Source: Paracoccaceae bacterium (GTDB lineage: Bacteria; Pseudomonadota; Alphaproteobacteria; Rhodobacterales; Rhodobacteraceae). Taken from it: a stretch of 64,000 nt of DNA. The translations under genes and the position numbers were made by a program. Below the pieces are notes generated by a model. That model did not search any database, had not been told where the DNA came from, and was given only the letters and a program-made list of their open reading frames with translations. The stretch spans positions 124,001 through 188,000 of the forward strand of contig JANSXZ010000002.1 of the NCBI GenBank assembly GCA_024742705.1, given 5' to 3'. Shown in pieces: positions 11,715-11,991 of the stretch (position 1 is its first letter; every line of letters begins with the position of its first letter).

Positions 11715-11774
11715 AAAAATCGTTTGGACATTGCAGCGCGCCGTGCCATCCTGATTGCAGGTTCAACAAAACGG

Positions 11775-11787
11775 AAGGAGGTGATCC
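11775..11787 (+). promoter_or_regulatory. unusually perfect Shine-Dalgarno for the 18-codon ORF
   Basis: AAGGAGGTGATCC is a thirteen-base match to the full complement of the 16S rRNA 3' end, far longer than usual. The core GGAGG is seven bases from the GTG start. AGGAGGTG (11776-11783) is exactly complementary to CACCTCCT at 11898-11905, downstream in the same transcript, so the site could be hidden by pairing. Confidence 0.7.
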
Positions 11788-11788
11788 A

Positions 11789-11845
11789 GTGTCGAGAAAG
11801 GTATTGGAGAGAGGTGTCGGAACAGCTTGGGAGGCCGCCTGCTAG
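11789..11845 (+). CDS. 18-residue leader-type peptide in a structured RNA
   Basis: GTG-initiated ORF reading (V/M)SRKVLERGVGTAWEAAC, then TAG. Support for translation is the thirteen-base Shine-Dalgarno at ideal spacing. The last codons (Trp-Glu-Ala-Ala-Cys-stop) lie in the 5' arm of a long hairpin: CTTGGG 11826-11831 pairs with CCCAAG 11870-11875, and GGCC 11833-11836 with GGCC 11865-11868. An intrinsic terminator ends the unit before arfB. I do not recognise the peptide as a named family. It could be a leader peptide, a small protein, or the coding part of a dual-function sRNA. Only one Trp and one terminal Cys are present, so classical amino-acid attenuation is not obvious. Confidence 0.55.
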   Translation: MSRKVLERGVGTAWEAAC

Positions 11846-11905
11846 GGCAGCCCCGCGCGGCGTCGGCCGCCCAAGTGGATCGGCGATCTGACCGACCCAC
11901 CTCCT
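11826..11905 (+). ncRNA. structured segment of a small RNA with hairpin and anti-Shine-Dalgarno element
   Basis: The region folds on paper into a stem closed by CTTGGG/CCCAAG with inner GGCC/GGCC and GCC/GGC pairs. It is followed by CACCTCCT, which resembles the 16S anti-Shine-Dalgarno and can pair with the ribosome-binding site about 115 bases upstream. With the ORF and terminator, the unit spans about 11760-11950. Whether it is a free sRNA or the 3' end of the upstream transporter mRNA cannot be decided from sequence alone. Confidence 0.45.
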
Positions 11906-11915
11906 GAAACTTTCG

Positions 11916-11949
11916 AAAGGGCCGTCCGGGCAATCGGGCGGCCCTTTTT
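11916..11949 (+). terminator. rho-independent terminator
   Basis: A thirteen-pair stem AAAGGGCCGTCCG/CGGGCGGCCCTTT (one T-G pair) with a six-base loop GGCAAT ends in a five-T run. It terminates the small RNA and insulates arfB, whose start is about 43 bases further on. Confidence 0.88.
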
Positions 11950-11991
11950 GACCGCTTTCGCGGAACCAGACCAAGACAATCCGAGGCCACC

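Follow-up and report, generated by a model that had tools for sequence, protein, structure and literature searches.

What is the compact unit at 11775-11950 of the window (the whole 64,000-nucleotide stretch of Paracoccaceae bacterium DNA analysed here) made for: its short peptide, the gene that follows it, or the RNA itself? Direct reading finds a start site, a short ORF, stem-loops that span the last codons of the ORF, an imitation of the 16S rRNA tail and a terminator (Table 1). The initial annotation had picked out the same parts, namely a 13-base Shine-Dalgarno sequence, a GTG start, 18 codons, a hairpin, an anti-Shine-Dalgarno sequence and a terminator, and all of them are where it had put them.

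Table 1. Features of the locus in window coordinates and the evidence for each
Feature	Position	Strand	Evidence
Promoter-like sequence, TTGGAC, 17 nt, CATCCT	11724-11752	+	aligned upstream regions of homologs
Extended Shine-Dalgarno sequence AAGGAGGTGATCC, complement of the whole 16S rRNA 3' tail	11775-11787	+	direct reading
ORF of 18 codons, GTG start (11789-11791), TAG stop (11843-11845), peptide VSRKVLERGVGTAWEAAC	11789-11845	+	direct reading, homologs
Helix P1, GGAGGTG (Shine-Dalgarno core) with CACCTCC	11777-11783 with 11898-11904	+	99.7% of cells paired, 84 sequences
Helix P2, hairpin over the start codon	11785-11793 with 11800-11808	+	97.5% of cells paired, 84 sequences
Helix P3, GTCGG with CCGAC	11816-11820 with 11892-11896	+	95.9% of cells paired
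Helix P4	~11823-11831 with ~11870-11878	+	covariation (with P5)
Helix P5, hairpin at the stop codon	~11842-11860	+	covariation (with P4)
Internal anti-Shine-Dalgarno imitation CACCTCCT	11898-11905	+	direct reading
Intrinsic terminator, GC-rich hairpin ending in T5, AAAGGGCCGTCCG..CGGGCGGCCCTTTTT	11916-11949	+	direct reading, homologs

Putative transcript and distribution

The exact 13-mer of the Shine-Dalgarno sequence occurs twice in the 3.7-Mb genome, the second copy lying within a coding sequence. The 15-nt complement AAAGGAGGTGATCCA is present in a single copy, in the RNA, in four of five related genomes checked, in all four of which the rRNA genes are apparently missing or masked; in the fifth it is found in the RNA and also in both rRNA loci. 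The one 16S gene checked, from a relative, ends GGATCACCTCCTTTCT, matching what pairing with the tail requires.

The promoter-like element has the consensus TTTGACA ... TGTGNCANNCT in relatives, with TTTGAC(A) and TGTGNCA at equal spacing upstream of more than 50 aligned homologs. A scan for E. coli-type promoters called none at this element. Because the pattern is conserved, we infer that it acts as a promoter and that the unit is an independent transcript, which would start near 11759-11761 and give an RNA of ~190 nt; in homologs, an equivalent hairpin and T-run likewise lie 3' of the unit. At locus L013 and many other Rhodobacterales loci, the promoter region, which lies ~45 nt before the Shine-Dalgarno sequence, has the sequence TTGACAAACACAAAATCTGTGTCA. 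Its arms (TGACA...TGTCA) form an imperfect inverted repeat to which a transcription factor could bind; at 11724-11752 the repeat is degenerate.

BLAST found the unit in 24 of the 61 relatives first searched. A covariance search over relatives had been proposed in the initial annotation, and a model built here from 21 homologs recovers the unit in 256 of 298 genomes from this bacterium's family, including 227 of the 263 that are near-complete; each has one copy, with a single exception. The failure of the ORF, the hairpin or the anti-Shine-Dalgarno stretch to be conserved in relatives, by which the annotation proposed to judge its idea, did not occur. The model has no match in 42 family genomes, about one-seventh, some of them near-complete (e.g. 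G003, G013, and G036); several of these retain arfB, which a genome can therefore have without the RNA. Genome G209 has two model matches, and in G048 the 5' block was matched twice (C1:805112 and C1:2922049).

Beyond the family, a search for the 5' block pattern GAAAGGAGGTGNTCNNNTGTC matched 62 of the 113 alphaproteobacterial genomes and no genome among 186 from other Pseudomonadota; the reversed-pattern control gave zero matches. The conservation in the family and this distribution rule out a chance 16S-like fragment. The 5' block with a short ORF also occurs at loci L033, L053, and L111, in metagenome-assembled genomes labelled Gemmatimonadota (L053, as a chromosome, among them) and Nitrospinota, with a terminator as well in L053 and L111; these may reflect either true spread beyond Alphaproteobacteria or mis-binning. 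In Azospirillum (L088, L124, and L139), the extended Shine-Dalgarno block precedes a longer ORF of 57-65 codons, followed by a terminator; these ORFs have a signal-peptide-like start, MSHGA..., and the short ORFs elsewhere differ.

Kinship with CC2171

At the gathering level, the 64,000-nt window has zero Rfam matches. Nevertheless, the CC2171 model (RF01867) aligns over its full length, positions 1-159 of 159, with an E value of 1.4e-10 and 53.2 bits, and the alignment includes the 5' block GGAAGGAGGTGATCCAGTGTC. Since the full-length match is at this E value yet scores under the family's cut-off of 75 bits, we conclude from the sequence comparison that the RNA is a distant relative of CC2171 and not a member. 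A Caulobacter positive control was matched. Of 18 further alphaproteobacterial loci that carry this 5' block, 7 score above the cut-off; the CC2171 matches elsewhere in the class have the same 5' block and a short ORF.

The two groups share the GAAAGGAGGTGATCCAGTGTC block, a single small RNA gene with its own terminator, and an alphaproteobacterial range. They differ in the ORF (here 18 codons, VSRxxLERGVGT..., against ~22-26 codons, VSHC..., in CC2171) and in the central domain, which is unlike. They also differ in that the RNA studied here has a tail imitation 3' of the ORF and a Shine-Dalgarno sequence that is paired in the predicted fold, whereas in the CC2171 consensus the Shine-Dalgarno sequence is mostly unpaired. 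The CC2171-type closing helix, which joins the codons just after the start to bases before the terminator, gains statistical support from comparison across clades (0 of 3000 permutations) and from the MSSE clade taken by itself (P 0.0002); within Rhodobacterales it finds none (P 0.12-0.47).

CC2171 is listed in Rfam as a Caulobacter sRNA and, to our knowledge, no function is known for it; the literature searched, which did not extend to the original Caulobacter paper, describes none. The family is the Rfam match of MH_s33, seen by RNA-seq in M. huakuii (PMC5596092), and appears in a table of Rfam structure updates (PMC11701678). In Caulobacter, two RNAs previously classed as 'ncRNAs' proved to be translated when ribosomes were profiled; the main text of that report names neither (PMC4117421). 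The comparison made here links CC2171 to an unannotated sister group present in most Rhodobacterales and indicates that CC2171-related RNAs are probably translated rather than non-coding.

Predicted fold and probable translation of the short ORF

None of 200 dinucleotide shuffles folds as well as the segment itself (z -3.68), which has P2 in its minimum-energy fold and a pairing probability near 1 for the start region. Misalignment around CACCTCC dominated the covariation seen on a plain sequence alignment, which was set aside for a structure-fitted one. In the 84 sequences of the latter, which is biased towards the structure because it was fitted to the model, 94.2% of the cells of P1-P5 are paired and 160 cells have double changes, compared to 51.5 +/- 6.3 in shuffled alignments and above all 500 shuffles. 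The result holds in a smaller MAFFT alignment, where 90.2% of the cells are paired and there are 21 double changes, compared to 8.8 +/- 2.7 in shuffles. Two pairs of P3 are changed on both sides, and the bulk of the double changes falls in P4 and P5, where 12 of 14 pairs are changed on both sides; judged by the aligned homologs, P4 and P5, the two inner stems, covary strongly.

The pairing of the internal anti-Shine-Dalgarno stretch with the ribosome-binding site, foreseen when the locus was first annotated, corresponds to P1. As the Shine-Dalgarno arm is invariant, P1 cannot show compensatory change, and its pairing rests on one-sided, G-U-compatible change and on the conserved imitation. Changes in P1 are on the imitation side only (CACCTCC/CATCTCC/CGCCTCC) and nearly all lead to G-U or U-G partners, as exchanges of the kinds G-C/G-U and U-A/U-G. 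CACCTCC is a conserved block within an otherwise variable region and, in almost every one of 55 homologs, the stretch that pairs best with the Shine-Dalgarno sequence; the clade consensus of the imitation, CYGGNCCAYCTCC, resembles the 16S tail, CTGGATCACCTCC. Among 53 aligned homologs, the extended Shine-Dalgarno sequence is invariant or G-U-compatible at nearly every position. The single-sequence shuffle z values of the duplex between Shine-Dalgarno sequence and imitation are modest (a mean of -1.57 for Rhodobacterales and between -0.8 and -1.6 for other clades). In those clades, the segment that pairs most strongly with the Shine-Dalgarno sequence is often a tail-like one within the ORF (CTGGATC..GCCTC or TGGAGCAGCCTC). 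They also have support for another closing helix, and their Shine-Dalgarno sequence can be unpaired.

Opening the start site is predicted to cost 8.3 kcal/mol, and still 7.1 kcal/mol once the imitation is deleted in silico. The drop is small because P2 hides the start too, so both elements would matter. For isolated strands, the predicted pairing energy at the start site is -34.7 kcal/mol with the 30S tail and -15.5 kcal/mol with the imitation.

The short ORF is probably translated, to judge from where its stop lies. The stop is at codon 18 in 52 of the 55 Rhodobacterales copies (TAG in 22, TGA in 20, and TAA in 10), and TGG was never seen at this codon, where ~8.5 would be expected if both purine positions varied independently, a figure that is a guide and not a probability owing to the relatedness of the copies. 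Outside Rhodobacterales, the ORFs have 14-31 codons, and both length and sequence differ wholly between clades; all 46 copies have their first in-frame stop within codons 12-33, whereas the other two frames give 22 and 8 of the 46. The peptide itself is under hardly any constraint. The pN/pS ratio is 0.64 for codons 2-12, against ~0.9 in other frames, and 0.98 for codons 13-18, near the off-frame values. Codons 7 (GAG) and 12 (ACA) are without any change, synonymous ones included, as a constraint on the RNA predicts. Because the position of the stop is kept while pN/pS nears off-frame values, it seems that translation is selected and the peptide sequence is not. We therefore rejected the peptide as the main conserved product, since codons change regardless of the residue. 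A type I toxin mRNA was rejected as well, there being no hydrophobic membrane peptide (mean GRAVY 0.17 in the Rhodobacterales clade, -0.07 to 0.29 in other clades) and no conservation of the peptide. The initial annotation contained neither the kinship with CC2171 nor the lack of conservation in the peptide sequence.

Proposed mechanism and alternatives

We suggest that this free-standing, terminated, CC2171-related RNA is a self-masking small mRNA, in which access of the 30S subunit to the start site is contested by the imitation of the 16S tail. We put the probability of this reading at roughly one half; the identity and anatomy of the RNA are well supported, and the switch is likely. The closed fold would keep ribosomes off the start site until the tail of a 30S subunit, which could pair over more than twice the length of the imitation, displaces it. 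Loading of the subunit and translation of the 18 codons would then melt the central domain around the stop codon, and the RNA would reclose when ribosomes are scarce or busy. The signal would thus be translation or ribosome binding, and not the peptide. What the output might be is more speculative: candidates are the stability of the RNA itself, trapping of 30S subunits, masking of other start sites by freed CACCTCC and, only where arfB follows, read-through into that gene. Selection would then act on the loading of ribosomes at a start site that the 16S-tail imitation masks. If true, the RNA would be a concrete case of competition with the ribosome's own anti-Shine-Dalgarno sequence and possibly a gauge of free 30S subunits. 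The three roles named in the initial annotation, a ribosome-occupancy sensor, a dual-function sRNA and a leader, are all still candidates; for the dual-function role, comparative evidence supports the translated ORF.

The position of the unit invites another reading, an attenuator leader of arfB in which the behaviour of the ribosome on the 18-codon ORF decides whether the terminator is read through into the ribosome-rescue gene. In Rhodobacterales, the upstream neighbour is a Vut_1-family, yhhQ-like transporter gene and arfB usually lies downstream. In most of these genomes arfB is on the same strand, and in 40 of the 41 cases where it is adjacent its start is 15-127 nt (median 50) past the hairpin of the terminator. 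Often the gap is too short to hold a promoter or has no clear Shine-Dalgarno sequence; Pfam finds an RF-1 domain in the downstream protein. As the shortest gaps are too small for a promoter, read-through from the RNA into arfB is plausible. The initial annotation held that the terminator separates the unit from arfB; with arfB following so closely, it need not separate them. However, the RNA is kept in three genomes (G010, G026, and G199) with arfB elsewhere, arfB is present in genomes with no RNA detected, neighbours outside Rhodobacterales vary and none is constant, and no antiterminator overlapping the terminator was recognised in the conserved structure. Because arfB is unlinked in some carriers and the neighbours vary elsewhere, we regard the RNA as free-standing. 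Taken across the genomes compared, an arfB leader is not the general role of the RNA; control of arfB would be a local extra, and we consider the leader reading unlikely. A similarly low estimate applies to a wider proposal, a class-wide alphaproteobacterial family of ribosome sensors whose fold would report free 30S subunits through the 16S-tail complement and its imitation, with an ORF that only passes ribosomes through and, in Rhodobacterales, a signal that also reaches arfB by read-through.

A small mRNA made for its 18-residue peptide, with the start site and structure merely setting the dose, would fit the selection on the ORF and its stop and the weak coding signature of codons 2-12. 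It is quite improbable given the unconstrained codons 13-18, the synonymous invariance of GAG7 and ACA12, and peptides that range from 14 to 31 residues and are wholly different between clades. We think it very improbable that the RNA is a conventional base-pairing sRNA, with CACCTCC blocking the start sites of other mRNAs and its own translation being incidental or serving to release CACCTCC. That stretch is conserved and complementary to any Shine-Dalgarno sequence, and alphaproteobacterial sRNAs of the SmelA075/SmelA099 family, including R. sphaeroides RSs0680, carry CCUCCUCCC in several hairpin loops (PMC3927594). Like them, the RNA studied here is small and contains a complement of Shine-Dalgarno sequences. 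Repeated exposed loops of this kind are, however, absent from the predicted and conserved structure of the RNA studied here, whose single anti-Shine-Dalgarno stretch is predicted to pair with its own Shine-Dalgarno sequence instead of lying in a loop, is placed differently in other clades, and is accompanied by an ORF whose conserved stop such a role leaves unexplained.

A constant partner gene was also considered and rejected, the yhhQ/arfB synteny being confined to Rhodobacterales, where yhhQ is the more constant of the two. Outside that order, sequence reading places release factor 3-like or RNase R-like genes upstream of the RNA at L098, L120, L132, and L146 and downstream at L045 and L121; such translation and RNA-decay neighbours follow no general rule.

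The self-masking small mRNA that we favour can be set beside two further systems. The rnTrpL/peTrpL RNA of S. meliloti, which is leaderless and part of the trpE attenuator (PMC10117765), is likewise a translatable small RNA with a short ORF and a terminator; the RNA described here differs in that its extended Shine-Dalgarno sequence lies in a leader, its ORF lacks a run of codons for a single amino acid, and the gene that follows is not constant. In S. aureus, initiation sites with extended Shine-Dalgarno sequences have been described (PMC13009471); pairing similarly extends towards the start codon, and some of the sites belong to small ORFs. There, extension is a property of the start sites of ordinary mRNAs, whereas here it is found in a dedicated RNA that itself contains a 16S-tail imitation.
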